A stretch of 36,883 bases of DNA from an uncultured Pseudomonadota bacterium (lineage in GTDB: Bacteria; Pseudomonadota; Gammaproteobacteria; Burkholderiales; Methylophilaceae): positions 1-36,883 of the forward strand of contig CAIRBH010000039.1 in the NCBI GenBank assembly GCA_903876765.1, in the 5' to 3' direction. The notes under the pieces were generated by a model. It was given only the letters and a program-made list of their open reading frames with translations. It was not told the DNA's origin and made no database searches. Below, in pieces: positions 2 to 17,626 of the stretch (positions within the stretch are counted from its first letter, which is position 1; each line of letters opens with the position of its first letter). The position numbers were made by a program, and so were the translations under genes.

Positions 2-3000
2 CTCAACATGACGGCGGATTTCAACAACGTCAGCGGTATGTGGGCGACTAATAGCCTAGCGGGTAGTGGCTTTGTGCCAGTCGGTGCGGATTATGGCAGC
101 CCATTCACAGGCACTTTTGATGGGCAAAATCACACCATCACAGGATTAACCATTATTCGCCCAAGCACTTTGGGTGTGGGATTGTTCGGTTATGGCAATG
201 CTAGTATCAGTAATGTGGGTTTAGTTGATGTGGCTATTAGCGGTCAAGACAATGTGGGTGGTTTGCTTGGTAATAACTTCGGCAGCATTAGCAACAGTTA
301 TGTGACTGGTATGGTAGAAGGCACCGGATCTAATGTCGGTGGCCTAGTTGGGGTTAATTCTATTGGTGGCACCATTACTGATAGTCATGCCAGTGCTAGC
401 GTCACTGGCAGCTATTGTTTAGGTGGCCTAGTTGGTAGTAATTATGGCGGTACTATTAGTCAAAGTTATGCTACGGGTGCGGTCAGTGCTAGCAATAGTA
501 ATGCGGGCGGTTTGCTTGGTTTTAATTTTTGGGGAGATATCGTTGATAGTTATGCCACTGGCAATGTGCATGTTGACGATCAAAATGCTGGCGGTCTGGT
601 TGGCCAAAATAGATATTCTACAATTACCAATAGCTATGCCACTGGTAATGTTTCTGGTAGCGGCGATGTTGGTGGCTTGGTGGGGCATAATGGTGAGCTT
701 GGATCAGCGTTTGGCATTATCAGCAACAGCTATGCCTCAGGTAGTGTTACGGGGCTAGCTAACTCTATTGGTGGTTTGGTGGGTTACAACGGTGACGAGA
801 TTGCTAATAGTTATGCCATTGGCAGTGTGATAGGCGTGGAATATGTCGGCGGTCTAGTGGGTTACAACGATGGCAACATTTACAACGATGGCAACATTAG
901 TAATAGTTATGCTACAGGTGCGGTAACAGGAACCAATTCTTATGGCGGCTTAGTCGGTTATAACGGTGGTGTGGTCACTAGCAGTTTTTGGGATAGACAA
1001 ACCACAGGCCAGTTAACATCGGCGGGATCGCTCGATGGTGATGGCAAAACTACCGCCGAGCTACTGAGTTTAAGCACCTATGCGGGCTGGAGTTTTGGCG
1101 ACGCGCCCAACTCTGGCACTTGGTTTATGTTAGCTGGCGAAACCCGCCCCTTCTTGCAATCTGAATATAGCACCACGATTAGCAATAGCCATCAATTACA
1201 ACTGATGGCCATGGATCTAACCGCCAACTATACGCTGGCCAATAACCTCAACATGACGGCGGATTTCAACAACGTCAGCGGTATGTGGGCGACTGATAGC
1301 ATAACGGGCAGCGGCTTTGTGCCAGTGGGTTCGGATGCACACCAGTTTACTGGCAGCTTGGATGGCCTAGGCCATAGCATTACGGGCTTGTATATTAGTC
1401 GCAATAGCAATCAACTAGGTTTGTTTGGCGTTAACGTAGGCAGCATTAGCAATGTTGGTTTGATAGGCGTTAGTATCACTGGCGGTGATTATGTAGGTGG
1501 CTTGATAGGCACTAATCATGGCGGCAGTATTCGTAACAGTTATGCCACTGGCTATGTTACAGGCAGTGATTATGTAGGTGGCTTGATAGGCAAGAGCTAC
1601 GGTGCCGACATCAGCAATAGTTATTTTACTGGCAGTGTGCTGGGGAGTCTCTATGTGGGCGGTCTAGTTGGCATGAACAGCAATGATGACTACACTTACA
1701 TGGCAGGCTCAATTAGCCATAGTTATGCCAACGCTTTAGTGGAAGGCAATGATCAAGTCGGCGGTTTGGTGGGTAGTAATAGTGGTGATATTACTGCTAG
1801 TGACGCGACGGGTGATGTGGTTAATTCAAGCGGTGCCGGCTCAGTGGGCGGCTTGGTGGGCTATAACGCAATCTATGGCATTATAGATATCAGTTACGCC
1901 ACTGGCAACGTCAGTGGCACTACAGCAGTCGGCGGTTTGGTCGGCAGTAATAGTGGCGACGTGACTGCTAGTTTTGCCACAGGTAGCGTCCATGGTATTG
2001 ATGCGGTCGGCGGCTTAGTTGGTGGCAACTATGGTGGCAGCGTGAGCAATAGCTACGCGACTGGCAATGTGACCGCCGATATTGGCTTGGGCGGCAGTGA
2101 TGTCGGTGGCTTAATCGGGCTGAGCGACGGCAATATTACCAATAGCTACGCCAGCGGCGCTGTGCTAGGCAAGCTACACGTTGGCGGTTTAATTGGCAGT
2201 TCAGGCGCTACTTATGGTTCTACCATCAGCAATAGCTATGCCAGCGGCAATGTCACGGGTGATCAGCGTGTGGGTGGTTTGGTGGGTAATAACTATGGCT
2301 TTGTTATCAGCAGTTATGCGCTGGGAGACGTCTCTGGCAATAGCGCGGTTGGCGGCCTAGTGGGCTATAACAGCAGCACAGGTATTATCAACACCACTTA
2401 TGCCACTGGCGCGGGCGGTATTAGCCCTAGTTTTGGTGGTTTGGTTGGCGAGAACGATGGTGGCACCATAACTGGTAGCTATTGGGATACCGACAGCTCA
2501 GCTACCTCATCGGGTATTGCTTGGGATAGTGGCACTGGTTCTATAGGTTCTATAGATGTCACAGGTTTAAGCACTGCTGATTTCTTAAATGCCAATCGCT
2601 TTCTTTTCTGGAGTTTTGGACCAACGCCCAACACCGGCACATGGTTCATGATAGAGGGACAAACCCGCCCCTTCTTGCAATCTGAATACAGCACCAACAT
2701 TAGCAATAACCACCAATTGCAACTGATGGCTATGGATATGACTGCCCGTTACACGCTGGCCAATAACCTCAACATGACGGCGGATTTCAACAACGTCAGC
2801 GGCATGTGGGCCACCGATATTACAGCGGCGCAAGGCCAAGGCTTTGCAAGCTTAGCCCAGCATAATGAGGATAGTTTTACCGGTAGTTTAAATGGCTTAG
2901 GCCACAGCATTACTGGCTTGTATATTAATCGGCCTGCGGATAATTACGTTGGCTTATTTGGGTATGGCGATAGCACTGGCAGTATCAGCAATTTAGGCTT

Positions 3001-6000
3001 GTTGGCAGTGAATATTACTGGCCAAGCTTACGTCGGTGGTTTGATTGGGGGCAACTATGGCGGCACTATTCGCAATAGCTATGTCACAGGCAGTATCATG
3101 GGTGGTAATTATGTGGGTGGTTTGGTCGGCAGAAACTACGGCAACATTAGCAACAGCTCTGCCACTGGCACAGTATCAGGTAATAGCAATGTAGGTGGCT
3201 TAGTTGGAGAGCATTCCTTTGGCACGATTAGCGGCAGTCATGCCAATGTCGATGTGACTGGCTCACCTGATGGCAGCTCTTATGTAGGGGGCTTGGTTGG
3301 ACTAAGTTACAGCTTGATTAGCACTAGCTATGCCAGCGGCAATGTCACGGGTGACCAGCATGTGGGTGGTTTGGTTGGGCTAAGTTGTAACTTGATTAGC
3401 ACTAGCTATGCCAGCGGCAATGTCACGGGTGATCAGCGTGTGGGTGGTTTGGTGGGTAATAACTATGGCGAAATCAGTGCTAGTTACGCCACTGGCAACG
3501 TCATAGGCGATACTAATTATTCGCAAAATTTAGTCGGTGGTTTAGTCGGTAATAATGATGGCCACATTAGCAACAGTCATGCGACTGGCACGGTGACAGG
3601 CAGCTCTGACTATGTGGGGGGGTTGGTCGGTAGAAACTATAGCAACATTAGCACCAGTTATGCCACAGGGGCAGTGACAGGCGATAGCTACGTGGGTGGT
3701 CTAGTCGGTGCTCATATTGGCTACTCTAGTAGTATCAGCACCAGCAATGCTACAGGTGCCGTGACAGGCAATAGCTACGTGGGTGGTCTAGTCGGTGGTA
3801 ATTATGGCGGGACGATTAGTGAGGTTTACGCTACAGGTGCCGTGACCGGCAATAGCTACGTGGGTGGTCTAGTCGGTGGTAATAGTGGCGACGTAAGCAC
3901 CTCTTTTGCCAGTGGTCGTGTCATGGGTGGCAGTCATACGGGTGGTTTGATTGGCCAGAACTATGGTGGTGATATTATCTATAGTTTTTGGGATACCAAT
4001 AGCACTGGCCAATTAAGCTCAGATGGCGGCGCAGGCAAAACTACCGCCGAGCTGCTGACTTTAAGCACCTATGCGGGCTGGAGCTTTGGCGTCGCGCCCA
4101 ACTCTGGCACTTGGTTCATGTTAGAGGGCGAAACCCGTCCGTTCTTGCAATCTGAATACAGCACCACGATTAGCAATAGCCATCAATTACAACTGATGGC
4201 CATGGATCTAACCGCCAACTACACGCTAGCCAATAACATCAACATGACGGCCGATTTTAACAACGTTAGCGGCATGTGGGCGACCAATGGTGCTGCCTTA
4301 ACTGGTAAAGGGTTTGTGCAAATTGGTACGGATGAGGGCCATGAGTTTACTGGTAACTTTGACGGCCTAGGCCATACTATCAGCGGTTTAACCATCAATC
4401 GACCACTGGAATCCGATGTGGCGCTGTTTGGTTATGGCGATGCCAATATCAGCAATGTGGGCTTGCTGAATGTCAATATCACGGCCAATGGTTTTGTCGG
4501 CGGCTTGGTGGCAGATAACTTCGGCAGTATTAGTAATAGTTATGTGACAGGCACAGTTACTGGTCTTGGTGGTTTTGTGGGTGGTTTGGTCAGCAGCAAC
4601 TACGGTAGCGTCAGTCACAGCCATGCGGACGTTGAGGTGCTTGGTACTGATAATGTGGGCGGTTTAATCGGCAACAATGACTATGCCGCAACAGTTAGCA
4701 ACGCTTATGCCTTAGGCAGCGTTACTGCTACTGGCGATAATGTCGGCGGTTTGGTGGGCTTGACTGACGCATACACTAGCATTAGCAACAGCTATGCCAG
4801 TAGTGATGTGCAAAGCACGGGTAATAGTGTGGGTGGTTTGGTAGGTTTTGCTGAAGGCGGCACCAGTATTAGCAGCAGCTATGCTACGGGCAGTGTGACG
4901 GGTGATGGCCATCTTGGCGGCTTGGTTGGCCACATTAACTCTGGCAATATTAGCAACAGTTACGCCACGGGTGACGTCACTAGCACAAGCAATGCAGACT
5001 GGGTGGGCGGCCTGATAGGCTACAGCCAAGCGACAGTGGCACAAACTTATGCCACAGGTTTGGTGACCAGTACGGGCATAAATGTGGGTGGCCTGGTAGG
5101 CCAAAACGATAGTGGTGCTGTAGTTAATAGTTACTGGAATACAATCAATACAGACAATGGCAACGGCACTGGCCTGAGCGCTAGCCAAATGCGCGATAGC
5201 GCCAATTTTAGCGGTTTTAATTTTACTAACACAGCGGGTGCCACAGGCAATAACTGGGTGTTGGTCAATATCAATGGTCATTTAAATAATGCGGGCGGTG
5301 TGGCTGGTGCAACCACACCTATGCTGGCCTCAGAATATGCTGGCAGCATAGACAATGCCCACCAATTGCAGTTAATGGCTATGGATTTAACAGCCCATTA
5401 CAGCCTAGCGCAAAATATAGACGCCAGTAAAACCGCAAGTCTGCATGATGTTTGGGCTGACGCAGGTGGTTTTGTGCCAGTCGGTAGTAATGGTGGCTAT
5501 TTTACTGGCAGTTTTGATGGTCTAGGTCACACCATTAGCGGCTTAACCATAAATCGCCCGTTCATAAATGGCGTGGGTCTGTTTGGTTACGGCCAAGATA
5601 TTAGTAATGTTGGCTTGATTAATGCAGAGATTACAGGACAGTATTTAGTGGGCGGGCTAGTTGGCTTCACTATAGGCGACATACAAAATAGTTATGTGAC
5701 AGGGAATATTACTGGACTATATTATGTAGGCGGCTTAGCTGGTTACACGGATGGCGACATTATCAATAGCAATGCCAGTACCACTTTGATTGGCAACCAA
5801 CGTATCGGCGGTTTGGTCGGATTAGTGAACTGGAATGGTGTAATCAGTCACAGCTATGCCACAGGCACCGTGACTGGTACTAACAACGTGGGTGGTTTGG
5901 TGGGAGCTAACTATGGCAAAATAAACAATAGCTATGCCAATGAAACGGTCACTGGAACTAATAAAGTCGGTGGTTTGGTTGGCGCAAATAAAGCTAGTAT

Positions 6001-9000
6001 AGACACTAGCTATGCCGAAGGCAGTGCCACTGGTACTAGAAAAGTGGGAGGTTTAGTGGGGGCTAACTATGGCAACGTAGACACTAGCTATGCCGTAGCT
6101 AGCAGCACTGGGACTAGTAAAGTCGGTGGTTTAGTGGGGGCTAACTATGGCAACGTAGACACTAGCTATGCCAGCGGCGCGGTCAGTGGTGTTAGTCAAC
6201 TTGGTGGTTTGATAGGCCTTAACAGCAATTCAGTCACTAATAGTTTGTGGGATAGCCAGACCACAGGTCAGTCAACATCAGCAGGCTCAGCCGATAGCGA
6301 TGGCAAAATCACGGCACAGCTACTCACCCTTAGCACTTATACCGATGCAGGCTGGAGTTTTGGCAATGCACCCAACTCTGGCACTTGGTTCATGTTAGAA
6401 GGCCAAACTCGTCCGTTCTTGCAATCTGAATACAGCACCAGCATCAGCAATAGCCATCAATTACAACTGATGGCCATGGATTTAACGGCCAACTACACGC
6501 TGGCCAATAATATAGACATGAGCTCAGCCTTTAATAATGTGGGTGGTATGTGGGTGACAGATATCGCCACACATACTGGTCAAGGTTTTGTCACCATAGG
6601 CCAAGTGTTTGATTTCACCGGTAGTTTTGATGGCCTAGGCCATACCATTAGCGGTTTAACCATTAATCGGCCAACAGAATACGATGTAGCGTTATTTGGC
6701 TATAACCACGGCAGTATCAGCAATGTGGGCTTGCTTAACGTCAGTATTACCGCTGACAGTTATGTGGGTGGCTTAGTGTCTGACAACTACGGTAGGATCA
6801 GCAATAGCTATGTGACTGGCACGGTAGTAGCCTATAACAGTGTGGGTGGCTTGGTGGGTACAAATGGCGGCATTATTAGCAATAGCTATAGCACTGCCGA
6901 TGTCACTGGTGAGAATAAAGTAGGCGGCTTGGTGGGTGAGAATTTCTCAGTCGTCAACAATAGCTATGCCAGCGGCAACATCAATGGCACTAGTAATGTG
7001 GCTGGCTTAGTCGGCTGGAATGAAGGCGAGATTAGTAATAGTTACGCCAGTAGTAATGTACTAGGGACTTTTGATATTGGTGGTTTAGTTGGCTACAACG
7101 ATGGCACGCTGAGTAATAGTTTTTACAATCTAGATGAGGTAACAATTAACGGCACACATCAGTTGACGGCAGGGGGTATTTACAGCGGTCAATATGAGGC
7201 ATGGAGACTGAACAATAACACGCTGAATATCAGCGATTACTTGACTATGAGCGATGGTAGCTACCAAATTAGCAGTGTGCAAAATTTTAAAGACATGCTG
7301 GGTTTTGCGGAAACCAATAGCTACTATTTTATACAGACAGCAGATATTAACTTGTTGGCTAATGCTGGCTTGTACATGCCTTATTTTGCTGGTAACTACA
7401 ATGGCCAAAACCTTAGTATTTATAATGCGGTGCTTGATTTATCGGGTAATTCTAATATAGGCCTATTTGGTGATTTACGTGGTAGCTTGATCTATACCAA
7501 CGCGATCAATGTTGATGTCACAGGCGGTACCAACGTCGGTGGTTTGGTTGGCCGAGTGGCCTACGGTTCGTCAGTGTTAAGCAGTATTGCCACGGGGCAG
7601 GTGATGAGTTATGGCCAAAATGCGGGCGGTTTAGTGGGTTATAACGAGGGTCACATTAATGATGTTGATGCCTATGTTGTGATAAATGGTGGTGCGGTAG
7701 CCAATAATATAGGTGGTTTAGTAGGCTACAACGATGGCGATATCAGCAATGCCAATGCCTATAGCCATGTATATGCCGACAATGGCGGCACTTACGGCAA
7801 TGCGGTAGGCGGCTTAGTAGGTAAAAATTATGGCAATTTAAGCAATGTGTATGCTTATGGCAATGTGACGGGCAGCAGCCAAGTAGGCGGTCTGGTGGGT
7901 AGCAACCAGGGAGGCAGCATCGCCTATGGTTATGGCTATGGTAACGTCACGGCTAGCCGGGATGATGTCGGTGGTTTGGTTGGCTTGAGTAGTGCTACTT
8001 ATCGTAATGCTAGTATCAGTCACAGTGAGGCTTTTGGGCTGGTGTCTGGCGTGAATAATGTAGGCGGCTTGGTGGGCAAAAATGCTGTTGACTCATATTA
8101 CGACAATTATATTTTTAGCAATGGCATTGTGTCGGCCAGTATTACCGATAGCTATGCCACAGGTCAGGTCACGGGTAGCTATCAGGTAGGTGGTTTGGTC
8201 GGTTTAAATGAAAGCGCTATTCATGTGGTGAATGCGCATATTGACCACATCAGTGCTGACGTCAGCATCGCTAATAGTTATGCTACAGGCAGTGTAACAG
8301 GCGATCATCATGTGGGTGGCTTGGTCGGTCTCAATCAAAGCATAATCACTAACGATGGTGGCACTATAGACACCAGCAGCGCTAGTGCCAGTGTTGCTGA
8401 TAGTTATGCCACTGGTGCGGTCACGGGTGGCTATCAGGTGGGCGGCTTAGTCGGCACTAATAATGACGATATTAGCTCTATTTCTTACGACGATGCCCCG
8501 CCTATCATCGATAGCACTACCAGCGCCAGCATCAGCAATAGTCACGCCACTGGCAACGTTGCCATGTTAGATGTTGTTACTTATTCAGCAGGCGGCTTGG
8601 TCGGCGCCAATTATGGCCTGATTGAAAATAGTTATGCAACGGGTAAGGTCAGTGGCTTTGATTTCATAGGTGGCTTAGTGGGCTATGAAGAGGGCGGCGC
8701 TATTATTAATAGCTACGCCACTGGTGATGCGACTGGTAAAGGCCAGTATGTAGGTGGTTTGGCCGGGAGTAACGAGTTCGGCAGCATTAGTAATAGTTTC
8801 GCAACTGGCAATGTGAGTGGTCCTGATGATGCGGGTGGCTTAGTCGGTTACAACAGCGGCGATATTAGCACTAGCTATGCGACTGGTCGGGTAAGAGGTG
8901 GCAGTTATGCTGGCGGTTTGGTTGGCTTTAACCTCGGCACGATAGACACCAGTTATGCCACGGGCGCGGTGACAGGCAATGCACGATTAGGTGGCTTGGT

Positions 9001-12000
9001 GGGTGACGGGAATGCTAACAACGTGATGAATAGCTACTGGGATACGACTAGCAGCGGCCAATTAAGCTCTGCTGGTGGTGTGGGCTTAACAAGCACGGCA
9101 CTATTACATGCCGAGAATTACACAGGCTTTGACTTTGTTAGCGATTGGTTCTTAATCCAAGGTGAAACTCGCCCCTTCCTGCAAATGGAGTACAGCACCA
9201 GCATCACTAACGCCCATCAATTGCAACTGATGGCCATGGATCTAACCGCGCGTTATACCTTGGCCAATAACATAGCCATGACGGCGGATTTTAATAATAC
9301 CAGCGGCATGTGGGCCACCAATATTGGCTTAGCTACGGGTAGTGGTTTTGTGCCAGTGGGAACGAACGCAGACAATTTTACTGGTACGTTTGACGGCCTA
9401 GGCCATACCATTACTGGTTTAACCATCAATCGCCCTAAGTTAGACGGTGTGGGCCTATTTGGCTATGGGCAGGATATTAATCATGTTGGCTTGATAGATG
9501 TCAATATTACTGGTGAGAATTTTGTCGGTGGTTTAGTCGGTAATAGCTATCGCAGCATCAGCAGTAGTTATGTCACTAATAGTTATGTCACTGGTAGCGT
9601 CAGCGGCAATAATGAAGTAGGTGGCCTAGTTGGGGTAAGCAGCTTTGCTAACATCAGGAACAGCTATGCCACGGCTACGGTATCGGGTGCAAGCGATGTG
9701 GGCGGTCTGGTGGGGTTCAACTACGCCAGCAACATTGATAATAGCTACGCCACTGGGGTCGTGAGTGGAATTGCTAATGTGGGCGGCTTGGTTGGGATGA
9801 ATTATAGTAGCACTATTACCAATGCTTACGCTACGGGTGCAGTGACTGGAAATAGCGCTGCTGGTGGTTTGGTAGGAGCTAGGGGTATTTACAGCAACAT
9901 CAGTGATAGTTTTTGGGATACAGACACCACAGGTCAATTAAGTTCGGCTGGTGGTACAGGCAAAACCACGGCAGAACTCTTGAGTGCTAGCACCTATGCC
10001 AGTTGGAATGTTAGCTCAACGCCAGATTCAGGCATCTGGTTTATAGTGGATGGCGAAACGCGGCCCTTCCTGCAAATGGAATACAGCACCAACATTAGTA
10101 ATAGCCATCAATTACAGCTGATGGCTATGGATTTAGGCGCCAACTACACGCTGGCTAATAATATAGATATGACGGCAGACTTTAACAATACCAGCGGCAT
10201 GTGGGGCACCAATGCTAGCGCAGGTCGTGGCTTTGTACCAGTGGGCAGCTATGGTGACGGGTTTAGAGCTAGCTTTGATGGGCAAAATCATGTGATTACC
10301 GGGTTGAGCATTAATCGAGCAGAAAGTTACGGTGGCCTGTTTGGTTACACCAATGATTTTACTGATATCCATGATGTTGGTTTGATTAATGCTAGCGTTA
10401 TTGGCTATAACTATACTGGCGGGCTGGTTGGCTTAAATCATGGCACCATTGAAAACACTTACTTCTCAGGGCAGGTTGTAGGGCTCTCGCATGTTGGCGG
10501 TTTGGTCGGTGATAACGCTGGCAACATCCTCAATAGTTACAGCAGTGGTAGCTTGCAAGCATGGAATCGAATAGGCGGCTTGGTGGGCATTAATAATGGC
10601 TTGATTAGCAATACTTACAGCACCATGAGTGTTGCTGGTAGGCAAGATAATATCGGTGGATTGGTCGGGGGCAATGGCGGCACCATAGAACAAAGTTATG
10701 CCAGCGGTCATGTAGGGGGCGGATTTGGCACACAAGGCAGCCTAGTTGGTAACAATTCTGGTACGGTTAGCCAAAGTTTTTGGGATGCCGATATTTCAGG
10801 GGCGGTTGCAGGCATAGGCGGCGGTGTAAGCGCTGGCGCAGAGGGAAAAACCACGCTAGAACTCTTGAGTGCTAGCACCTATGCCAGTTGGAATGTTGGC
10901 TCAACGCCAAATTCAGGCACTTGGTTTATGGTGGATGGCGAAACGCGGCCCTTCCTGCAAATGGAATACAGCACCAACATTAGTAATAGCCATCAATTAC
11001 AGCTTATGGCCATGGACTTAAACGCCAACTACACGCTGGCTAATAATATAGATATGACGGCAGACTTTAACAATGCCAGCAGCATGTGGGGTACCGATAT
11101 TGGCGCAGCAACCGGCGCTGGCTTCGTGCCAGTGGGAACGGACACAGCCAATTTTACTGGCAGCTTTGACGGGCAGGGTCACACCATCAGCGGCTTAACC
11201 ATCTATCGGCCTACATTAATTGGTGTGGGCTTGTTTGGCTATGGTCAAGGCGCTAGCAATGTTGGTTTGCTGAATGTTGACATTACTGGCGCTGGGTCTA
11301 TCGGCGGTTTAATCGGTAACAACAGTGGCTCTATCATCAATAGTTATGCGATAGGCAGCGTGACGGGCGGCGGCTACAACATTGGCGGTTTGGTGGGTTA
11401 TAACAACGGCGATATCAGCAGTAGCTATGCTAAAGGTCGCGTGCAGGGGCTATATGCTGTTGGCGGTCTGGTTGGTTGGAATAATGGAGCCATCGCCAAT
11501 AGCTACGCTACAGGCGCGGTATATGGTGCTAACTATATAGGCGGTCTGGTTGGTTGGAATAGTGGAGCCATCGCCAATAGCTATGCCACGAGCGACATTC
11601 ATGCGGATAGCACCATTGGCGGTCTGGTGGGAGTCAATAGTAACAACGCTAGCATCAGCAATAGTTATGCGATGGGTGCTGTGTTTGGCTATGAGTTTGT
11701 GGGCGGCTTAGTGGGTAGCAACGAGGGGAACGCTAGCATTAGCAATAGTTATGCGATGGGTGCTGTGTCTGGATATGTAAGTTTAGGCGGTCTAGTGGGT
11801 AGTAATCAGATGAGTTCTACCGTCGCTGATAGTTTTTGGAATATTGATACTACAACTCAAGCCGTTGGCATAGGCCGTATAGGATCAGACCAAAGCGGTG
11901 TGACGGGCCTTGATGCTGAACAGATGACGCAAGTTGCTAGCTTTAGTCGCTGGGGAGCCGACATTAATAATACGGGCGAAACTGGCGCGGTTTGGCGTAT

Positions 12001-13201
12001 TTACGAAGGCCACACTGGCCCATTGCTAACCAGTTTTATGCAAAACATCAGCTTGGTAGATACGCACTTATCTTATAACGGTGCTAGTCAATCTGGTACA
12101 GCGGTGCCAACGGCAAATGGGCGGTCTGGCACTGCCGCTAGCGGCACTAATGCGGGCAGTTATGGCAGTTACTCTGATCAGCAAGGTTATAACATTTTCG
12201 GTGGCAACCTGATTATTGACCCTATCGCCTTAATCGCCATTAGTCTAAACGGCACACGCGTCTACGACGGTACCGTTGATTTGGCGGCCAGTATTTTTAA
12301 TTTGTACGGGGTGTTGGATGGCGAATCGCTTACGCTCACTGGTAGTGCTTATATGGATGATAGACATGTGGGCGTAGATAAAACGGTACGTGTGGGTACG
12401 CTGGCTCTGGGCGATTGCACCGAAGTCGGCTGCGCTGGCCTAGCCAGCAATTACAGCTTTAGTGGCGGTACGCAGAGCGTTACCATCACGCAAAAAGCCC
12501 TTAACCAGACAGGCTTAAGCGTCGCGGGCAGCAAAGTGTATGACGGTACACGAGACGCGTTAGCCTTAGGTGCAGCAAGCATCGCCACAGAAAACACTGG
12601 TACAGGTAACAGCCTAGACGGCCAAGCTTACACAGACGATGTGCTTAGCCTCACAGGCACGGCGACGGCAATCTACAACAGCAAAGATGTTGCCGATGCC
12701 AACACGGTAAGCTTTAGCGGTTTAAGTTTAAGCGGCACAGATGCAGGCAACTACAGCCTCACAGCACATGCCGATGCGGCGGCCAGTATCAGCCAAGCAC
12801 ATGCGCGGGTCACTGCAAATTCTGCCATAGTCAATTATAACGGCGCCAGCCAAAGTATTACTGGCTTTAGTTTCAGTGGTTTGGTGCATGATGAAACGGT
12901 GAGTGTATTAAATGCAGTAACGGCATTGGGCAGCGGGGTTGAGGCGGGCGATTATGCGGTAATCGCCAGTGGTACGGCGGCTAATTATGACTTAAGTTTT
13001 ATTGAGGGTATTTTAACTATAGAAAAACCCAGCACCAGTGCATTCTTATCAGCGATTAATGCTACACTCAACGGCTTGAATAAAGCGGGTGAGCAAGAGT
13101 CAGGCGATGTTCATGCGGATCAGGCAGATATTTTAAATGAAGATAGCATCAATTTACCGGAAAATAGAATGACCTCATTGCATGTTAGCGTTAGAGATTA
13201 A
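2..13201 (+). CDS. Giant GLUG-repeat exoprotein, TpsA-like (5' end outside window)
   Basis: This is the C-terminal part (about 4,400 residues) of a very large exported surface protein. The frame is open from nt 2 and the first visible ATG (nt 8) lies inside a repeated hinge (NLNMTADFNNVSGMWAT), so the true start, signal peptide and any TPS secretion domain are upstream. About 85 GGLVG/GGLIG cores, counted by eye, sit in 24-30-residue units of the pattern GGLVGxNxGxIxNSYATGxVTG, typical of the GLUG family. Hinges with PFLQSEYS, HQLQLMAMDL and MTADFNN divide it into about ten blocks. After nt 12050 come two YDG-type modules (KVYDGT-like motifs near nt 12255 and 12535), one MBG-like module (about 12800-13030) and a 55-residue tail. 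No toxin-like C-terminus is evident. The transporter gene starts 6 nt after the stop. It is probably a filamentous adhesin of two-partner secretion; its ligand is unknown. It is rich in Gly/Ser/Asn/Tyr and poor in Lys and Cys. Confidence 0.88.
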   Translation, partial: LNMTADFNNVSGMWATNSLAGSGFVPVGADYGSPFTGTFDGQNHTITGLTIIRPSTLGVGLFGYGNASISNVGLVDVAISGQDNVGGLLGNNFGSISNSYVTGMVEGTGSNVGGLVGVNSIGGTITDSHASASVTGSYCLGGLVGSNYGGTISQSYATGAVSASNSNAGGLLGFNFWGDIVDSYATGNVHVDDQNAGGLVGQNRYSTITNSYATGNVSGSGDVGGLVGHNGELGSAFGIISNSYASGSVTGLANSIGGLVGYNGDEIANSYAIGSVIGVEYVGGLVGYNDGNIYNDGNISNSYATGAVTGTNSYGGLVGYNGGVVTSSFWDRQTTGQLTSAGSLDGDGKTTAELLSLSTYAGWSFGDAPNSGTWFMLAGETRPFLQSEYSTTISNSHQLQLMAMDLTANYTLANNLNMTADFNNVSGMWATDSITGSGFVPVGSDAHQFTGSLDGLGHSITGLYISRNSNQLGLFGVNVGSISNVGLIGVSITGGDYVGGLIGTNHGGSIRNSYATGYVTGSDYVGGLIGKSYGADISNSYFTGSVLGSLYVGGLVGMNSNDDYTYMAGSISHSYANALVEGNDQVGGLVGSNSGDITASDATGDVVNSSGAGSVGGLVGYNAIYGIIDISYATGNVSGTTAVGGLVGSNSGDVTASFATGSVHGIDAVGGLVGGNYGGSVSNSYATGNVTADIGLGGSDVGGLIGLSDGNITNSYASGAVLGKLHVGGLIGSSGATYGSTISNSYASGNVTGDQRVGGLVGNNYGFVISSYALGDVSGNSAVGGLVGYNSSTGIINTTYATGAGGISPSFGGLVGENDGGTITGSYWDTDSSATSSGIAWDSGTGSIGSIDVTGLSTADFLNANRFLFWSFGPTPNTGTWFMIEGQTRPFLQSEYSTNISNNHQLQLMAMDMTARYTLANNLNMTADFNNVSGMWATDITAAQGQGFASLAQHNEDSFTGSLNGLGHSITGLYINRPADNYVGLFGYGDSTGSISNLGLLAVNITGQAYVGGLIGGNYGGTIRNSYVTGSIMGGNYVGGLVGRNYGNISNSSATGTVSGNSNVGGLVGEHSFGTISGSHANVDVTGSPDGSSYVGGLVGLSYSLISTSYASGNVTGDQHVGGLVGLSCNLISTSYASGNVTGDQRVGGLVGNNYGEISASYATGNVIGDTNYSQNLVGGLVGNNDGHISNSHATGTVTGSSDYVGGLVGRNYSNISTSYATGAVTGDSYVGGLVGAHIGYSSSISTSNATGAVTGNSYVGGLVGGNYGGTISEVYATGAVTGNSYVGGLVGGNSGDVSTSFASGRVMGGSHTGGLIGQNYGGDIIYSFWDTNSTGQLSSDGGAGKTTAELLTLSTYAGWSFGVAPNSGTWFMLEGETRPFLQSEYSTTISNSHQLQLMAMDLTANYTLANNINMTADFNNVSGMWATNGAALTGKGFVQIGTDEGHEFTGNFDGLGHTISGLTINRPLESDVALFGYGDANISNVGLLNVNITANGFVGGLVADNFGSISNSYVTGTVTGLGGFVGGLVSSNYGSVSHSHADVEVLGTDNVGGLIGNNDYAATVSNAYALGSVTATGDNVGGLVGLTDAYTSISNSYASSDVQSTGNSVGGLVGFAEGGTSISSSYATGSVTGDGHLGGLVGHINSGNISNSYATGDVTSTSNADWVGGLIGYSQATVAQTYATGLVTSTGINVGGLVGQNDSGAVVNSYWNTINTDNGNGTGLSASQMRDSANFSGFNFTNTAGATGNNWVLVNINGHLNNAGGVAGATTPMLASEYAGSIDNAHQLQLMAMDLTAHYSLAQNIDASKTASLHDVWADAGGFVPVGSNGGYFTGSFDGLGHTISGLTINRPFINGVGLFGYGQDISNVGLINAEITGQYLVGGLVGFTIGDIQNSYVTGNITGLYYVGGLAGYTDGDIINSNASTTLIGNQRIGGLVGLVNWNGVISHSYATGTVTGTNNVGGLVGANYGKINNSYANETVTGTNKVGGLVGANKASIDTSYAEGSATGTRKVGGLVGANYGNVDTSYAVASSTGTSKVGGLVGANYGNVDTSYASGAVSGVSQLGGLIGLNSNSVTNSLWDSQTTGQSTSAGSADSDGKITAQLLTLSTYTDAGWSFGNAPNSGTWFMLEGQTRPFLQSEYSTSISNSHQLQLMAMDLTANYTLANNIDMSSAFNNVGGMWVTDIATHTGQGFVTIGQVFDFTGSFDGLGHTISGLTINRPTEYDVALFGYNHGSISNVGLLNVSITADSYVGGLVSDNYGRISNSYVTGTVVAYNSVGGLVGTNGGIISNSYSTADVTGENKVGGLVGENFSVVNNSYASGNINGTSNVAGLVGWNEGEISNSYASSNVLGTFDIGGLVGYNDGTLSNSFYNLDEVTINGTHQLTAGGIYSGQYEAWRLNNNTLNISDYLTMSDGSYQISSVQNFKDMLGFAETNSYYFIQTADINLLANAGLYMPYFAGNYNGQNLSIYNAVLDLSGNSNIGLFGDLRGSLIYTNAINVDVTGGTNVGGLVGRVAYGSSVLSSIATGQVMSYGQNAGGLVGYNEGHINDVDAYVVINGGAVANNIGGLVGYNDGDISNANAYSHVYADNGGTYGNAVGGLVGKNYGNLSNVYAYGNVTGSSQVGGLVGSNQGGSIAYGYGYGNVTASRDDVGGLVGLSSATYRNASISHSEAFGLVSGVNNVGGLVGKNAVDSYYDNYIFSNGIVSASITDSYATGQVTGSYQVGGLVGLNESAIHVVNAHIDHISADVSIANSYATGSVTGDHHVGGLVGLNQSIITNDGGTIDTSSASASVADSYATGAVTGGYQVGGLVGTNNDDISSISYDDAPPIIDSTTSASISNSHATGNVAMLDVVTYSAGGLVGANYGLIENSYATGKVSGFDFIGGLVGYEEGGAIINSYATGDATGKGQYVGGLAGSNEFGSISNSFATGNVSGPDDAGGLVGYNSGDISTSYATGRVRGGSYAGGLVGFNLGTIDTSYATGAVTGNARLGGLVGDGNANNVMNSYWDTTSSGQLSSAGGVGLTSTALLHAENYTGFDFVSDWFLIQGETRPFLQMEYSTSITNAHQLQLMAMDLTARYTLANNIAMTADFNNTSGMWATNIGLATGSGFVPVGTNADNFTGTFDGLGHTITGLTINRPKLDGVGLFGYGQDINHVGLIDVNITGENFVGGLVGNSYRSISSSYVTNSYVTGSVSGNNEVGGLVGVSSFANIRNSYATATVSGASDVGGLVGFNYASNIDNSYATGVVSGIANVGGLVGMNYSSTITNAYATGAVTGNSAAGGLVGARGIYSNISDSFWDTDTTGQLSSAGGTGKTTAELLSASTYASWNVSSTPDSGIWFIVDGETRPFLQMEYSTNISNSHQLQLMAMDLGANYTLANNIDMTADFNNTSGMWGTNASAGRGFVPVGSYGDGFRASFDGQNHVITGLSINRAESYGGLFGYTNDFTDIHDVGLINASVIGYNYTGGLVGLNHGTIENTYFSGQVVGLSHVGGLVGDNAGNILNSYSSGSLQAWNRIGGLVGINNGLISNTYSTMSVAGRQDNIGGLVGGNGGTIEQSYASGHVGGGFGTQGSLVGNNSGTVSQSFWDADISGAVAGIGGGVSAGAEGKTTLELLSASTYASWNVGSTPNSGTWFMVDGETRPFLQMEYSTNISNSHQLQLMAMDLNANYTLANNIDMTADFNNASSMWGTDIGAATGAGFVPVGTDTANFTGSFDGQGHTISGLTIYRPTLIGVGLFGYGQGASNVGLLNVDITGAGSIGGLIGNNSGSIINSYAIGSVTGGGYNIGGLVGYNNGDISSSYAKGRVQGLYAVGGLVGWNNGAIANSYATGAVYGANYIGGLVGWNSGAIANSYATSDIHADSTIGGLVGVNSNNASISNSYAMGAVFGYEFVGGLVGSNEGNASISNSYAMGAVSGYVSLGGLVGSNQMSSTVADSFWNIDTTTQAVGIGRIGSDQSGVTGLDAEQMTQVASFSRWGADINNTGETGAVWRIYEGHTGPLLTSFMQNISLVDTHLSYNGASQSGTAVPTANGRSGTAASGTNAGSYGSYSDQQGYNIFGGNLIIDPIALIAISLNGTRVYDGTVDLAASIFNLYGVLDGESLTLTGSAYMDDRHVGVDKTVRVGTLALGDCTEVGCAGLASNYSFSGGTQSVTITQKALNQTGLSVAGSKVYDGTRDALALGAASIATENTGTGNSLDGQAYTDDVLSLTGTATAIYNSKDVADANTVSFSGLSLSGTDAGNYSLTAHADAAASISQAHARVTANSAIVNYNGASQSITGFSFSGLVHDETVSVLNAVTALGSGVEAGDYAVIASGTAANYDLSFIEGILTIEKPSTSAFLSAINATLNGLNKAGEQESGDVHADQADILNEDSINLPENRMTSLHVSVRD
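2233..3469 (+). repeat. Pair of identical 67-nt intragenic repeats
   Basis: Positions 2233-2299 and 3403-3469 are identical over 67 nt, spaced by 1170 nt (390 codons), and encode the unit SYASGNVTGDQRVGGLVGNN. The second copy is also part of a local 78-nt tandem duplication with 3314 onward. These are direct-repeat substrates for in-frame recombination. Confidence 0.85.
9974..11100 (+). repeat. 885-nt tandem block duplication inside the exoprotein gene
   Basis: The segment from 9974 to about 10215 recurs nearly unchanged at 10859 to about 11100. The offset is exactly 885 nt (295 codons); the two hinge ATG codons are at 10169 and 11054. Both copies carry ELLSASTYASWNV and then RPFLQMEYSTNISNSHQLQL. 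The sequence between the copies is a short GLUG block. The high nucleotide identity in the hinge, against divergence in the block body, suggests recent duplication or gene conversion. Confidence 0.85.
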
Positions 13202-13207: not shown

Positions 13208-14890
13208 ATGCTCAGTACATATTCACAATACAAGCGGCCGCAGCTGTTGACGGCCTTTATTTTTGCCCTAAGCGCGGGGCTTACTGCGCAGGCTGCTACG
13301 CCAGATGCGGGGCAGTTTTCGCAAGAGCTTAAAAAGCAACCTAATCTTAATCCGTCTAATCCAGTGGAGTTATTGAATATTCCTAGCACTAAGGAAGGTT
13401 CAGCGGATGCTGCTGACGACATTCGTATGACGGTGAATAAAATTAAAGTCTCTGGCAGTACTGTGACCACGAGTGAAGCCCTAGAAGCCATGGTGGCCGA
13501 CTTGCTAGGGCAGTCGCATAATTTTGCTGAAATTAATGCGGGAGTGGCAAGAATCACCAATTGGTATCGCCAGCAAGGTTATTTGGTGGCGCGGGCTTAT
13601 TTGCCAGCACAAGACTTAAAAGATGGTCTGGTTGAAATTAAGGTATTAGAAGGCTTGCTGGGTGAGCCGCACATCAGCAACCGCTCACGCATTGCTGACG
13701 CTAAGGTGAATCAGCACTTTAAAGAGGTGGAAACTGGCGCGCCTTTGCAGAGCAAATCGGTTTATCGTGCCATATTGCTATTGAGCGATACGCCTGGGGT
13801 GGGTGGCGCCAGAGCTACTTTGCAGCCTGGGGCCAGCGTAGGCACATCGGATTTAATTTTTGAGCTTGACCCTAGTCAAGCTTATACCGCCAATGTTGAG
13901 CTGGATAATTATGGCAGTCACTACACGGGTGAAAATCGTTTAGGCGCGGCGGTGGCCTTAAATAGCCCCTTGCATTTGGGTGATCAGCTTACTGTGCGGG
14001 CACTGACTAGTGATCAAGATATGACCTATGCCCGTATTGCTTACCAATTGCCTATAGGCGGCCAAGGCTTTAAGCTGGGCGCAGCTTATTCTGATATGAA
14101 ATACACCTTGGGCAGGCAGTATACCGATCTGAATGCACACGGTGATGCTACTAGTATGAGCGCTTATGTCAGCTACCCGATTGTTCGTAGCCAAACACTC
14201 AATGTCTATACGACACTGACCTTAGAGCAAAAAGACAGCAAAGACACACAAGTCGACACGGTCGATAAAAAGGTAAGGCTACTTAATTTTGGCCTAACTG
14301 GTAGTCAGCCCGATAATCTATTTGGTGGCGGCGTGAATTCATTTGAAACCTCGTTTGTGACTGGCAATTTGTCTATGGATGCTGCCAGTTTGGCGATAGA
14401 TCAAGCCTCGGCAAACAGTCATGGCGGCTTTGCTAAACTCAACCTTAATTTAAGCCGCTTACAGCGCATTACCGATAGCAATTTATTATCTATTGCCGTG
14501 TCTGGGCAATGGGCCAATAAAAACTTAAATTCATCAGAAAAATTCTACCTAGCTGGTTCAAATGGGGTGCGTGCCTATCCGCCTGGCGAAGGAGGTGGTG
14601 ACCAAGGCTTGATGTTAAACGCAGAGCTGCGCCACAGTTTTAGCGACAAGTTGCAAGCGATTGCTTTTTTTGACGCAGGCACGGTACGCATTAATCAAGA
14701 TGCCTACATTGCCAATACGGCCAATAACCGCAGCATCACTGGTGCGGGGTTTGGCTTAAATGCCTCATATAAAGCCTTGCAATTTAAAAGCGCCTTGGCC
14801 TGGCGTTTGCATGGTGGGCCAGCCTTGTCTGAGCCGATTAGCGAAGATACCAACCCACGATTATGGATGCAGATGAGCAGTACTTTTTAA
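13208..14890 (+). CDS. TpsB outer-membrane transporter, FhaC/ShlB family
   Basis: This 560-residue protein is the predicted outer-membrane partner that exports the preceding giant exoprotein. A signal peptide ends near Ala29 (LTAQA|AT). A POTRA_2-like domain spans about 72-149 and ends in DGLVEIKVLEG. The rest is a predicted 16-strand Omp85/TpsB barrel. The L6-type motif VRAYPPGEGGGDQG lies near residues 454-467, followed by the barrel strand AIAFFDAGTVRI, and the chain ends in the terminal Phe typical of outer-membrane barrels. Its length fits the family's usual 550-590. The gene starts 6 nt after the exoprotein stop with no good Shine-Dalgarno, which suggests translational coupling. The order exoprotein then transporter resembles HMW1A-HMW1B. 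Confidence 0.93.
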   Translation: MLSTYSQYKRPQLLTAFIFALSAGLTAQAATPDAGQFSQELKKQPNLNPSNPVELLNIPSTKEGSADAADDIRMTVNKIKVSGSTVTTSEALEAMVADLLGQSHNFAEINAGVARITNWYRQQGYLVARAYLPAQDLKDGLVEIKVLEGLLGEPHISNRSRIADAKVNQHFKEVETGAPLQSKSVYRAILLLSDTPGVGGARATLQPGASVGTSDLIFELDPSQAYTANVELDNYGSHYTGENRLGAAVALNSPLHLGDQLTVRALTSDQDMTYARIAYQLPIGGQGFKLGAAYSDMKYTLGRQYTDLNAHGDATSMSAYVSYPIVRSQTLNVYTTLTLEQKDSKDTQVDTVDKKVRLLNFGLTGSQPDNLFGGGVNSFETSFVTGNLSMDAASLAIDQASANSHGGFAKLNLNLSRLQRITDSNLLSIAVSGQWANKNLNSSEKFYLAGSNGVRAYPPGEGGGDQGLMLNAELRHSFSDKLQAIAFFDAGTVRINQDAYIANTANNRSITGAGFGLNASYKALQFKSALAWRLHGGPALSEPISEDTNPRLWMQMSSTF

Positions 14891-15010
14891 TCAATAGCCT
14901 TTTTGTAGCAGCAATTTTTTAAGGGATGAATGATGCCATCGATGACCTAAGATGGCCTAGGTTGGCCTATATGCTGCGGTGCAACCGTGCACAGGCTAAA
15001 GCTCACCATT

Positions 15011-15052
15011 AATAAACTATAACCAATAAACCATAACCAATAAACCATGACG
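15011..15052 (+). repeat. Three 14-nt tandem repeats spanning a start codon
   Basis: Three consecutive 14-nt units run AATAAACTATAACC, AATAAACCATAACC and AATAAACCATGACG. A change in the third unit provides the ATG at 15047 used by the sulfotransferase gene. No Shine-Dalgarno sequence is visible, so the repeats occupy the place where the ribosome-binding site should be. Confidence 0.85.
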
Positions 15053-15880
15053 ACTAAACTACCTAAATTTGTAGGGGTGACAGGGCTGCCGCGTGCAGGA
15101 TCTACCCTACTTTGCCAGTTACTAGCGCAGCACCCTGAAATTAATTGTGAAGGCCATAGCTCGCCCTTGTGCAATACTTTGCTGGGCATACGCCGCATGA
15201 TAAGTGATGACAGCTTTTTTTTAGCACAGCTGGACAGTAGCTTTGAATCTAGCTATACACATTTACGTACCGCCATGCAGGGCTTTTTGCAGGGCTGGTA
15301 TCAAGGCGCAGAAGAGCCGCTGGTGGTCGATAAAAATCGCGCTTGGTTGCATGCCATTGAGCTACTGCTCCACATACAGCCAGAGGCTAAGCTGATTGTT
15401 TGTGTGCGCGAATTAGGGCAGATTTATGGCTCTATAGAAGCGCAACATCAAAAAACCATATTATTGGATTTTATTGATCATCTGGCTGATTACGACCGCT
15501 TTGGTCGGGCGGATATTTTATTTGCTAAAGATAAAGCCATAGGTGCGCCGCTGACCTCATTACATGCAGTACCTGACTTGCCGAAACATGTGCAAGAGCG
15601 ACTGTACTTTGTGCGTTTTGAAGACATGATGAGCAATCCTGTGGCCTGCATGAGTCATATCTACGCTTGGTTAGGGGTGTCAGCCTATGCAATTAATCCT
15701 GAGAAGATTGAAACAGGCCTACGTGAAAGTGACAGCCACTACCACATGAAATATACCCATCAACAATCAACTAGCATCCGTCAGCCCAAGCCGCACTTAA
15801 TCCCGCCGCGCATACAAAAGCAAATTGAGACAGCCTACGCTTGGTTTTACCAAACCTATTACCCGCAAAAGAAAAAATAG
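15047..15880 (+). CDS. PAPS-dependent sulfotransferase-like protein
   Basis: This 277-residue cytosolic protein is predicted to transfer a sulfuryl group from PAPS. The 5'-phosphosulfate loop GLPRAGSTLL is at residues 13-22. A second conserved stretch, LIVCVREL, fits the 3'-phosphate-binding strand, and VRFEDMMSNP near residue 190 fits the late sulfotransferase core. There is no signal peptide or membrane segment. Closest by eye are the bacterial Sulfotransfer_3/Sulfotransfer_1-type proteins; the acceptor cannot be read from the sequence. It lies 156 nt after the transporter gene and 20 nt before the next gene, on the same strand, so it may act on the exoprotein. The start is the first ATG, embedded in a 14-nt repeat without a clear ribosome-binding site. 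Confidence 0.85.
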   Translation: MTTKLPKFVGVTGLPRAGSTLLCQLLAQHPEINCEGHSSPLCNTLLGIRRMISDDSFFLAQLDSSFESSYTHLRTAMQGFLQGWYQGAEEPLVVDKNRAWLHAIELLLHIQPEAKLIVCVRELGQIYGSIEAQHQKTILLDFIDHLADYDRFGRADILFAKDKAIGAPLTSLHAVPDLPKHVQERLYFVRFEDMMSNPVACMSHIYAWLGVSAYAINPEKIETGLRESDSHYHMKYTHQQSTSIRQPKPHLIPPRIQKQIETAYAWFYQTYYPQKKK

Positions 15881-15900
15881 CAAAGCCTAGGAGCGCCAAC

Positions 15901-16398
15901 GTGAGCATTCAAGATACGTCTAAGCCCCAGCTTAAAGACCTACAATTAGTCAGCAGCGGCCTCAATGACACAGCTTTGGTGGGGGTTTCGCTTATCGTTT
16001 CTCGCCACCCACCTTTTGTGAATTATTCATTCCGCCTCATGCTGATGAAATTGATAGATCAGCTGAAATATAAAGCTAATGTGACGGCCATGCAAAATGG
16101 CAAGATAGTCGCTTATGCTGGTTGGATAGTGGTTAATGATGCCGATGCTCAGCGTTGGTTAAAAGTCGGCGGTGAAATTCCTGTGCCAAACTGGCAAACT
16201 GGTGATGCCGCCATTATCACCATGATAGTGACCGAGCATAAGCGCTATTTACTGCCCTTAATGCGAGCAGTATCGCATAGTTGTGCGGGTAAAAAAGGCT
16301 ATGCCATGCGGGCATATCAAGATGGCCGAGCTGAAACTAAACGGCAAACCATAGATGCCAGAGTACAAATTTTTCATCATGAGCCATCATGCAAATAA
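15901..16398 (+). CDS. HlyC-like (toxin-activating) acyltransferase candidate
   Basis: This is a 165-residue protein starting at GTG 15901, chosen because AGGAG at 15889-15893 sits 7 nt upstream; the longer ATG-started frame from 15841 overlaps the previous gene. Compared by hand with HlyC from memory, the order of landmarks agrees: a histidine in SRHPPF (His36) where HlyC has its catalytic His23, then GKIVAYAGW like HlyC PVAYCSW, then NWQTGD like DWTSGD, then a helix and GYAMRAY where HlyC has FRAIRV. HlyC-family enzymes move an acyl group from acyl-ACP to a toxin lysine. The catalytic Asp92 equivalent is not obvious (the segment reads ITMIVTE). It could be a divergent or inactive relative, or another GNAT-like protein. 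The context, between a sulfotransferase and a P450 behind a secreted giant protein, favours a modifying role. Confidence 0.5.
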   Translation: MSIQDTSKPQLKDLQLVSSGLNDTALVGVSLIVSRHPPFVNYSFRLMLMKLIDQLKYKANVTAMQNGKIVAYAGWIVVNDADAQRWLKVGGEIPVPNWQTGDAAIITMIVTEHKRYLLPLMRAVSHSCAGKKGYAMRAYQDGRAETKRQTIDARVQIFHHEPSCK

Positions 16399-16429: not shown

Positions 16430-17626
16430 ATGAAAATTAATGGCATGGACAGCCGAGATATTTTATCGGGGCTGGTGGTAAATTTGTACAAAAAAGCCAT
16501 TAACCCTAGTTTTGAGTTTCCGCTAGCTATTAGGCTGATAGATACGCCTGACTTAGCAAAAGCGATTTTTTTGGCGCCTGATACTTTTGTAAAAAATTAT
16601 TTCTTTTTAGAAAGTCTGTCTAAAGGTCGCTTCTCAGCTAATGGTGAGGATTGGAAAAGGCGGGCGGCGATTACCCAGCCATTTTATAGCCAAGCCACTA
16701 CAGTATTAGACGAGCAGGCGCTTGAGGCGATCTATGCCAAGCATATACAGCTTTACTTGCATAGCAGCCAGCCTAAGCTCAGTGAAACTTTTATTAATGC
16801 GGCTTTAGAGGCCATTTCGCGCATGTTCGGCTTATCCAATAACATTGCCTGGCCAGCTGAATTGGTCAGTCGGGCAAGGGCGGCGCTGGTGGATCAGCAA
16901 GCCATTGCTTGGCTAGGATCATCGCCCAAACTAGCAGAACAAAGTCAGCGAGAATTAAGACTTATTTTTGCTGAATTTAGCTCGCTTTGGCAGGCAGACC
17001 CTGAGCTGATGCAGTTGCTCGATCAGTTTAATGCCCGTGCACAAGGGTTGGCAGATTTCAGTGCGGCGGGCGAGCTATTGCAAAGTTTATTCGCCGCCAC
17101 AGAAACTGCCGCATCTGGTATGTTATGGGCGATAGAATGTATGACTAGATATGCAACATTGCCCGCTATCATGCACCCCGAACTACACCCAGCAGAGATA
17201 GGTTTCTTTCTGGATGAGGTGCTTAGAATTTTTACCCCAGTGCCCTATGTCAGCCGCGTCTGCACCAAGGCAAGTGTCATTAATGGCCAAGCCTTTGCTG
17301 AAAATGAAGCGATTATTATTTCTATAGTCGGCGTGCATAGTGACCCAAAGCACTGGCATGAGCCGCTATTATTCAAGCCTAAGCGCGAGGAGTTTGTCAA
17401 CGCCAGCTATGCGCGCCATGCTTATATCCCATTTTTAAGCGGCCCTAGAGCCTGCGCTGGCATGAAGCTGGCTAGACAGGAAGTCAAATGTGGTATGCAG
17501 GCATTGTTAAAAGTCTTTGCCGTGCAAGCCTGCGTTGAGCCCAGAGGGCTGGATTACGGCCTGGCTTCTAGGCCTAGCGTGCAGCTTGAGCGCTACCTGA
17601 CCCCGCGGCTAGAAGTCAGCGTTTAA
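16430..17626 (+). CDS. Cytochrome P450
   Basis: This 398-residue soluble P450 has the K-helix ExxR motif at Glu263-Arg266 (EVLR) and the haem-ligand loop FLSGPRACAG with Cys342. An I-helix-like segment, FAATETAASG, is consistent with the oxygen-binding groove. There is no membrane anchor, as expected for bacterial class I enzymes that take electrons from a ferredoxin; no ferredoxin or reductase gene is nearby. ATG 16430 is preferred over TTG 16424 because TGAGG at 16418-16422 is 7 nt from the ATG and 1 nt from the TTG. The gap to the preceding gene is 31 nt. The substrate is unknown. Its place as last gene of the secretion locus suggests oxidation of the exoprotein or of a small molecule attached to it, which is inference. 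Confidence 0.92.
   Translation: MKINGMDSRDILSGLVVNLYKKAINPSFEFPLAIRLIDTPDLAKAIFLAPDTFVKNYFFLESLSKGRFSANGEDWKRRAAITQPFYSQATTVLDEQALEAIYAKHIQLYLHSSQPKLSETFINAALEAISRMFGLSNNIAWPAELVSRARAALVDQQAIAWLGSSPKLAEQSQRELRLIFAEFSSLWQADPELMQLLDQFNARAQGLADFSAAGELLQSLFAATETAASGMLWAIECMTRYATLPAIMHPELHPAEIGFFLDEVLRIFTPVPYVSRVCTKASVINGQAFAENEAIIISIVGVHSDPKHWHEPLLFKPKREEFVNASYARHAYIPFLSGPRACAGMKLARQEVKCGMQALLKVFAVQACVEPRGLDYGLASRPSVQLERYLTPRLEVSV

Follow-up and report, generated by a model that had tools for sequence, protein, structure and literature searches.

Recurrence of an HlyC-like protein and cytochrome P450 gene pair beside giant type V exoproteins suggests an undescribed chemical decoration before export

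Is a giant exoprotein chemically decorated before it is exported, by the enzymes whose genes stand behind its own? The question is raised by a two-partner secretion (TPS) locus of an uncultured Methylophilaceae bacterium. The locus lies on contig CAIRBH010000039.1 of assembly GCA_903876765.1, and this one whole contig (C39), 36,883 nucleotides (nt) long, is the stretch analyzed here and called the window. Open reading frames (ORFs) and Pfam matches give the + strand order GLUG-repeat TpsA exoprotein, TpsB, sulfotransferase, divergent HlyC-like gene and cytochrome P450, in agreement with the gene order and motifs reported in an earlier note on this DNA, which had proposed that the three enzymes act jointly on the exoprotein. 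The HlyC-like/P450 pair is a real, sparsely distributed gene association, and its recurrence beside giant secreted proteins in unrelated bacteria suggests an undescribed chemical decoration before export. The idea of the earlier note is better founded than it could know; its sulfotransferase part and the label of HlyC acyltransferase are weaker than supposed. The locus comprises the following features.

2..13201, + strand: GLUG-repeat TpsA exoprotein, 3′ part; 4,399 codons, 5′ end open at the contig start (ORF and Pfam).
13208..14890, + strand: TpsB outer-membrane transporter, 560 aa, with POTRA_2 and the ShlB barrel.
15047..15880, + strand: stand-alone sulfotransferase (P0003) of the 3′-phosphoadenosine 5′-phosphosulfate (PAPS) type, 277 aa, by Sulfotransfer_3 and motifs.
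15901..16398, + strand: HlyC-like protein, about 165 aa, GTG start; its frame, P0004 (185 aa), opens at 15841.
16430..17626, + strand: cytochrome P450, about 398 aa, ATG start at 16430; its frame, P0005, opens at 16424.
17791..17810, + strand: terminator-like stem-loop, 3′ of the P450 gene and 5′ of the next gene (17898), by consensus match only.

P0005 matches PF00067 at 99.6 bits (Pfam cut-off 22.8). P450s are recognized by an ExxR motif, an acid–Thr pair in the I-helix and the heme-Cys motif FxxGxRxCxG. In P0005 these are E265/R268, E227-T228 and F337-G340-R342-C344-G346, with Cys344 as the heme cysteine (numbering of the frame starting at 16424), and all of these residues occupy invariant alignment columns. 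The PDB matches of P0005 are general P450s. Searches of plasmids, genome contigs and sampled genomes gave eight further loci with P450s of the same clade.

Caulobacter sp. AP07: L021.
G720 (Caulobacteraceae): L040.
G1513: L055/L069.
Methylohalomonas lacus (a gammaproteobacterium): L019/L023.
Thalassobium R2A62: L022.
Gemmobacter aquarius: L016.
Loktanella salsilacus: L017, on a plasmid.
Rhodobacteraceae metagenome-assembled genome: L024, its P450 cut by the contig end.

The genome-contig scan used two peptide patterns and returned four loci; plasmid searches started from two other clade P450s and from one HlyC-like protein added no recognizable clade member among the matches listed. Profile A4, built from seven of the nine rows, scores the nine clade P450s at 334–609 bits (498 and 334 for the outside rows, G720 and G1513) and six control P450s at 123–146 bits. 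In the P450 tree all nine loci lie on one side of a branch with support 100/100, within which the window, G1513 and the two Caulobacteraceae group together (100/99).

An HlyC-like gene belongs to six of the nine clusters. It stands directly upstream of the P450 gene on the same strand in four (window, AP07, G720, and G1513), and is convergent with it at a distance of about 2 kb in Thalassobium and Gemmobacter. The G1513 locus amounts to a fair blind test, having been found by the P450 profile alone and later seen to hold an HlyC-like gene; the encoded protein is 44% identical to P0004, and the gene lies 16 nt from an autotransporter gene and 33 nt upstream of the P450 gene. Over the six rows common to both, the HlyC-like and P450 trees agree in topology, with support in the HlyC-like tree of 83/84 for window plus G1513, 97/92 for the two Caulobacteraceae, 99/99 for these four and 98/97 for Thalassobium plus Gemmobacter. 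The union of the six P450-linked rows into one group is weakly supported (66/58).

What the clade P450s accompany is, in most cases, a type V secreted protein: a gene of such an exoprotein system lies within about 10 kb of the P450 gene in eight of the nine loci. AP07 encodes a TpsA with TPS, GLUG, YDG, and MBG_2 domains. Sequence matching in G720 found an ORF resembling the TPS region of the window genome (8e-29) and a TpsB match (3e-13), the latter about 10 kb from the P450 gene. G1513 has an autotransporter of 5,540 aa (PF03797, 6e-36), preceded on the same strand (L069:34-17797; C4) by the end of an MBG_2/YDG protein, a tetratricopeptide-repeat (TPR) protein with a double sulfotransferase, and an adenosine 5′-phosphosulfate (APS) kinase with three glycosyltransferases. 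The tpsB gene of Methylohalomonas is convergent with the P450 gene, and autotransporters lie near the P450 in L024, Loktanella, and Gemmobacter (3.3 kb away in the last). The contig of AP07 ends about 0.8 kb before the HlyC-like gene and that of L024 begins inside the P450 gene, so that genes further upstream are out of view. None of six control P450 loci, hand-picked from proteobacterial plasmid matches, has a type V gene annotated within 6 kb in the PLSDB gene tables, which are incomplete; nor was an ORF with a TPS motif found in these loci, autotransporter domains not having been searched there. Small outer-membrane barrels are also seen in the Rhodobacteraceae branch, beside the HlyC-like gene or its cluster (L022, L016, and L046): Legionella_OMP in L022, an annotated member of the Lpg1974 family in L016, and in L046 an ORF (9025-9981) judged by eye to resemble outer-membrane proteins.

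The association is rare. Among 121 genomes of the relatives set P0004 occurs in one, and among 187 of the window's family P0005 occurs in one, in both cases the window's own genome. P0005 was found in 2 of 369 genomes evenly sampled from the class, and a strong P450 match in 1 of 325 sampled from the family of Thalassobium and 2 of 329 from the phylum; these sampled rates are lower bounds, because only some of the first-look candidates in each genome were scored. Conservation of the three-enzyme set in relatives of the window is accordingly rejected, none being present in either the 121-genome or the 187-genome sample. All three enzyme types occur together in four of the nine loci (window, G1513, Thalassobium, and Gemmobacter), three of which have a type V exoprotein near, and with TpsAB in the window only. 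The co-occurrence with TpsAB that the earlier note asked for in relatives is absent there, and its interpretation is partly supported by distant genomes: both Caulobacteraceae, each with a GLUG-type TpsA, and G1513, with its giant autotransporter, carry the HlyC-like and P450 genes near the gene of a type V exoprotein.

We consider it very improbable that three unrelated enzymes simply landed by accident between tpsB and the next gene. Such an origin would agree with the absence of the set from the sample of the window's family, and with the surroundings of the best plasmid-record match of P0003, a 52% identical stand-alone gene near an annotated integrase and transposase on a Geminocystis (cyanobacterial) plasmid. 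It does not account for the recurrence of the pair with type V genes in distant genomes, nor for the agreement of the two trees. Accidental adjacency is unlikely for the pair, and still possible for the sulfotransferase alone.

The secretion system of the window is assigned to type Vb on its transporter, P0002, which matches ShlB at 106.6 bits and POTRA_2 at 74.8 bits in Pfam. The exoprotein matches Glug at 735.5 bits over 79 stretches and carries YDG domains near its C-terminus. The giant GLUG exoprotein of the earlier note is confirmed as to GLUG; the ORF in the window is incomplete, its 5′ end being open at the contig start, and an N-terminal TPS domain does not fall within the window. A second contig of the same genome, C38, ends inside a 3′-open GLUG ORF (L012:6095-10090, + strand) with an ESPR signal peptide (58 bits) and a TPS domain (131 bits), and 61 of the 61 GLUG matches listed for the genome fall on C38 or C39. 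The simplest reading is that the two ORFs are probably one split gene encoding more than 5,700 aa, although no exact match of at least 15 bases joins the ends of C38 and C39. Pfam detects no toxin domain in the window exoprotein, whose C-terminal portion is that with the YDG domains. The C-terminal toxin and immunity gene of a CdiA/CdiC locus are not seen; tpsB and the enzyme genes come after the exoprotein.

On balance we favor the reading that this is a type Vb locus whose giant, adhesin-like GLUG exoprotein is modified in the cytoplasm before export by the HlyC-like/P450 pair, sometimes with a sulfotransferase. Before Sec export the HlyC-like enzyme would load the passenger with a group, the simplest candidate being an acyl chain taken from acyl-acyl carrier protein, and the P450 would oxidize that chain or a passenger side-chain. 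In about half of the loci a sulfotransferase would then sulfate a hydroxyl, possibly one made by the P450, and TpsB would export the modified exoprotein to the surface. That the exoprotein is acted on, where and in which sequence the enzymes work, and what chemistry they perform are all inferred. The acyl transfer would be analogous to the action of CdiC, which puts 3-hydroxydecanoate on CdiA (PMC8510554), in accord with the earlier note's choice of CdiC as a precedent for acylation of TpsA-type proteins.

The HlyC-like family is homologous to toxin-activating acyltransferases (TAATs), since the sole significant PDB match of its profile A6 (14 sequences) is ApxC (4whn, E 3.2e-6); PDB searches with P0004 alone and with profile A3 returned neither ApxC nor any other acyltransferase. 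P0004 itself scores 18.8 bits against Pfam HlyC, below the cut-off of 25, which makes the earlier note's word "candidate" a fair one, and one wider-family member, P0012, barely exceeds that cut-off (25.1). Wider relatives come from Caulobacteraceae, Rhodobacteraceae and the genus of G1513. Nine of 12 wider-family loci, as a raw count, adjoin a large ORF with repeats-in-toxin (RTX) motifs (L041, L042, L044, L045, and L047–L051, from Caulobacteraceae and Rhodobacteraceae; L044 is the same locus as L018 and was counted once), and all three of the RTX-motif ORFs checked are HemolysinCabind (PF00353) proteins. Members of this family are therefore frequent neighbors of large secreted proteins. The wider-family stretches beside RTX-motif ORFs yielded no P450 of the clade; the P450-linked branch pairs with type V instead of RTX partners. 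The loci without an adjoining RTX-motif ORF are L043, L046, and L059, the last a weak match (G1552) with no P450 in its ORF list. The weak matches L042, L051, and L059 were left out of A6 and of the HlyC-like tree. In G1012 (L043:10153-10422, C7) a close-type HlyC-like gene has an internal stop, and the surrounding 20 kb contain no clade P450 and no RTX-motif ORF; it is perhaps the remnant of a lost locus, and this broken row was left out of the tree.

The sulfotransferase is well defined as an enzyme. P0003 matches PF13469 (Sulfotransfer_3) at 72.5 bits (Pfam cut-off 27). PAPS sulfotransferases bind the 5′- and 3′-phosphates of their cofactor through two motifs, which in P0003 are GLPRAGST at residue 13 and R121 in VRELGQIYGS, and the protein is assigned to this class on these grounds. 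Its best PDB matches are the protein-tyrosine sulfotransferases TPST1/2 (E 6e-7), the TPST1 match spanning residues 9–123 only, with a gap near the expected motif. PF13469 proteins lie near five of the nine P450 loci (window, Thalassobium, Gemmobacter, Methylohalomonas, and G1513), that of Methylohalomonas being of the TPR type and that of G1513 of the TPR type with two Sulfotransfer_3 stretches. P0003 shows weak likeness to the G1513 type (9e-9) and does not match the other three. The five loci thus hold three dissimilar types; the sulfotransferase is rejected as one conserved component, its link to the pair is weaker for the same reason, and recurrent recruitment of sulfotransferases is possible. 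An annotated sulfotransferase of Loktanella, 9.6 kb off among glycosyltransferases, was left out of this count. A search for relatives of six known sulfotransferases came back empty for the AP07, G720, Loktanella, and L024 stretches, but it cannot prove absence because the annotated Loktanella enzyme also escaped it.

Besides this diversity of sulfotransferases, several observations weigh against the favored reading. The HlyC-like gene is missing from three of the nine P450 loci, and searches of the Methylohalomonas and L024 genomes and of the Loktanella plasmid did not turn one up. Beside the Methylohalomonas tpsB lies a large repetitive ORF without a Pfam match, and the stretches examined there showed no TPS motif; in Thalassobium only a Legionella_OMP-type barrel is seen, ORF lists of about 61 kb (with Pfam on part) showing no large exoprotein or TPS motif. 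Within the close family, the sub-threshold HlyC match of 18.8 bits is confined to P0004; P0013, P0014, P0010, and the G1513 protein give none at E 1. In the A6–ApxC alignment the ApxC His (SPLH) falls on the invariant F59 and its Asp (FID), presumably Asp93, on the hydrophobic M128 (numbering of the 185-aa frame P0004 starting at 15841), and the close-family alignment shows no conserved replacement dyad. His and Asp are given as the catalytic dyad of TAATs in the accessible text of PMC8510554. This dyad is not conserved in the HlyC-like family, and for this reason the protein is not filed as a TAAT: the acyltransferase identity proposed in the earlier note holds as homology to ApxC, and HlyC-type catalysis is doubtful. 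H56 was rejected as the catalytic His: it misses the ApxC His by three alignment positions, and three close relatives have Ile or Tyr in its place. AlphaFold, run on three-row alignments, gave two models of the HlyC-like protein, both discarded for their poor quality (predicted local distance difference test scores of 48.4 and 44.6), and Foldseek placed Gcn5-related N-acetyltransferases (GNATs) on top for the first of them, with no E value below 0.04. Lysine, the residue to which RTX TAATs transfer the acyl group of acyl-acyl carrier protein in a partner exoprotein, is scarce in the present exoproteins (0.6–1.8%), and the missing dyad and this low lysine content of the passenger weaken the CdiC analogy. 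Composition and 5-mer counts identified no modification site; a specific Lys or Tyr target motif was rejected, as none stood out.

The missing dyad and the weak model matches to general GNATs would also suit a different product altogether: the HlyC-like protein and the P450 would synthesize a small molecule or a lipid of the cell surface, such as an oxidized N-acyl amino acid, the sulfotransferase would act on this product or on a surface glycan, and the exoprotein would be no more than a neighbor or carrier. Genes for AMP-binding, methyltransferase-like and alpha/beta hydrolase proteins, recognized by annotation or by eye, lie beside some loci, and the three glycosyltransferases and APS kinase upstream in G1513 fit as well. 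However, these accessory genes vary from locus to locus, whereas the type V gene is the feature common to eight of the nine; besides the pair, the window, G1513 and the Caulobacteraceae all share a type V exoprotein gene, and the wider HlyC-like family stands beside RTX-motif ORFs as described. We therefore regard a small-molecule or lipid product as unlikely.

The three loci without an HlyC-like gene raise another possibility, that the P450 alone hydroxylates or cross-links passenger tyrosines, as do the P450s of ribosomally synthesized and post-translationally modified peptides (RiPPs), with the HlyC-like protein as a non-catalytic presenter. The closest NCBIfam model to P0005 is the RiPP P450 ApyO, which in the available portion of PMC13192836 joins two tyrosines, and the window passenger contains 5.1% Tyr and 0.6% Lys. 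Yet the match of 72.7 bits, far under the cut-off of 525, shows no more than a likeness at the level of the family; six of the nine loci retain the HlyC-like gene alongside the P450 gene, with agreeing trees, and the wider HlyC-like family accompanies RTX-motif ORFs without a clade P450 in the stretches searched. Action of the P450 on its own seems decidedly unlikely to us.

Modification of the exoprotein by the HlyC-like/P450 pair remains the reading that we favor. A more complete version of it is offered tentatively, as a possibility we hold to be doubtful: giant type V exoproteins may receive, before they are exported, a group that is oxidized, acylated and sulfated, built by a dyad-less TAAT relative, a dedicated P450 and, in certain lineages, a sulfotransferase that has a PAPS supply of its own.

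Co-transcription of the enzyme genes of the window is plausible. The gaps of 156, 20, and 31 nt given in the earlier note hold if the HlyC-like gene starts at GTG 15901, which is preceded by AGGAG at 15889-15893, and the P450 gene at ATG 16430. Consensus scans, in which the number of promoter- and terminator-like matches equals chance expectation, place + strand terminator-like matches at 17791, after the P450 gene, and at 15496, the latter within the sulfotransferase gene and a further point against the favored reading; they give no + strand promoter- or terminator-like match in 14890-15047. The gene at 17898, downstream of the P450 gene, is one that we take from its translation to be purL. 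Farther along, positions 22869-24137 encode the flavoprotein chain of a flavocytochrome c sulfide dehydrogenase (FCSD_central), which is unrelated to the exoprotein locus.

Sugars are known to be attached covalently to type V exoproteins. A co-inherited acyltransferase-like/P450 pair would add oxidation, and perhaps sulfation, to a repertoire of sugars and the one acyl chain of CdiA, and would indicate that one branch of the HlyC superfamily works by a different catalysis. If the more complete version offered above is true, it would provide the first example, to our knowledge, of a P450 that acts on an entire secreted exoprotein, in a module common to alpha- and gammaproteobacterial lineages with different secretion routes (two-partner or autotransporter). 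The pair would serve as a genomic marker for modified exoproteins of environmental bacteria, and the prediction is directly testable as a mass shift of the passenger that depends on two small neighboring genes. Full-text searches of open-licence papers gave no account of type V or GLUG exoproteins combined with such enzymes (one rhizobial genome paper matched), and nothing on TAAT phylogeny together with genomic context.

Several known systems come closest to this locus and its components. P0003 is closest in the PDB to TPST1/2, over residues 9–123 only, whereas its best plasmid relative is a stand-alone cyanobacterial gene. ApyO, the P450 of aminopyruvatide biosynthesis, is the nearest NCBIfam model to P0005 and in the available portion of PMC13192836 acts on a ribosomal product; P0005 scores far below its equivalog cut-off, and a short precursor peptide contrasts with an exoprotein of thousands of residues. 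The RTX TAATs (HlyC, ApxC; PF02794) share with the HlyC-like family the A6–ApxC homology and, for the wider family, the proximity of RTX-motif ORFs, but the subgroup studied here lies below the Pfam cut-off (P0004), does not conserve the dyad and has a type V rather than an RTX partner. In HMW1C-type glycosylation of TpsA adhesins, a cytoplasmic enzyme encoded beside the adhesin genes acts before export; the window locus has different enzymes and would use a different chemistry. Class IV contact-dependent inhibition (CDI) loci likewise encode an HlyC-homologous enzyme with a two-partner exoprotein, CdiC acylating CdiA (accessible text of PMC8510554). In that text CdiC retains the His37/Asp107 dyad, which is not conserved in the present family, and, unlike the CdiA class, the window exoprotein has no Pfam toxin domain. 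A P450 or sulfotransferase is not mentioned for Class IV CDI loci in the accessible text of PMC8510554, whereas the window locus holds both.

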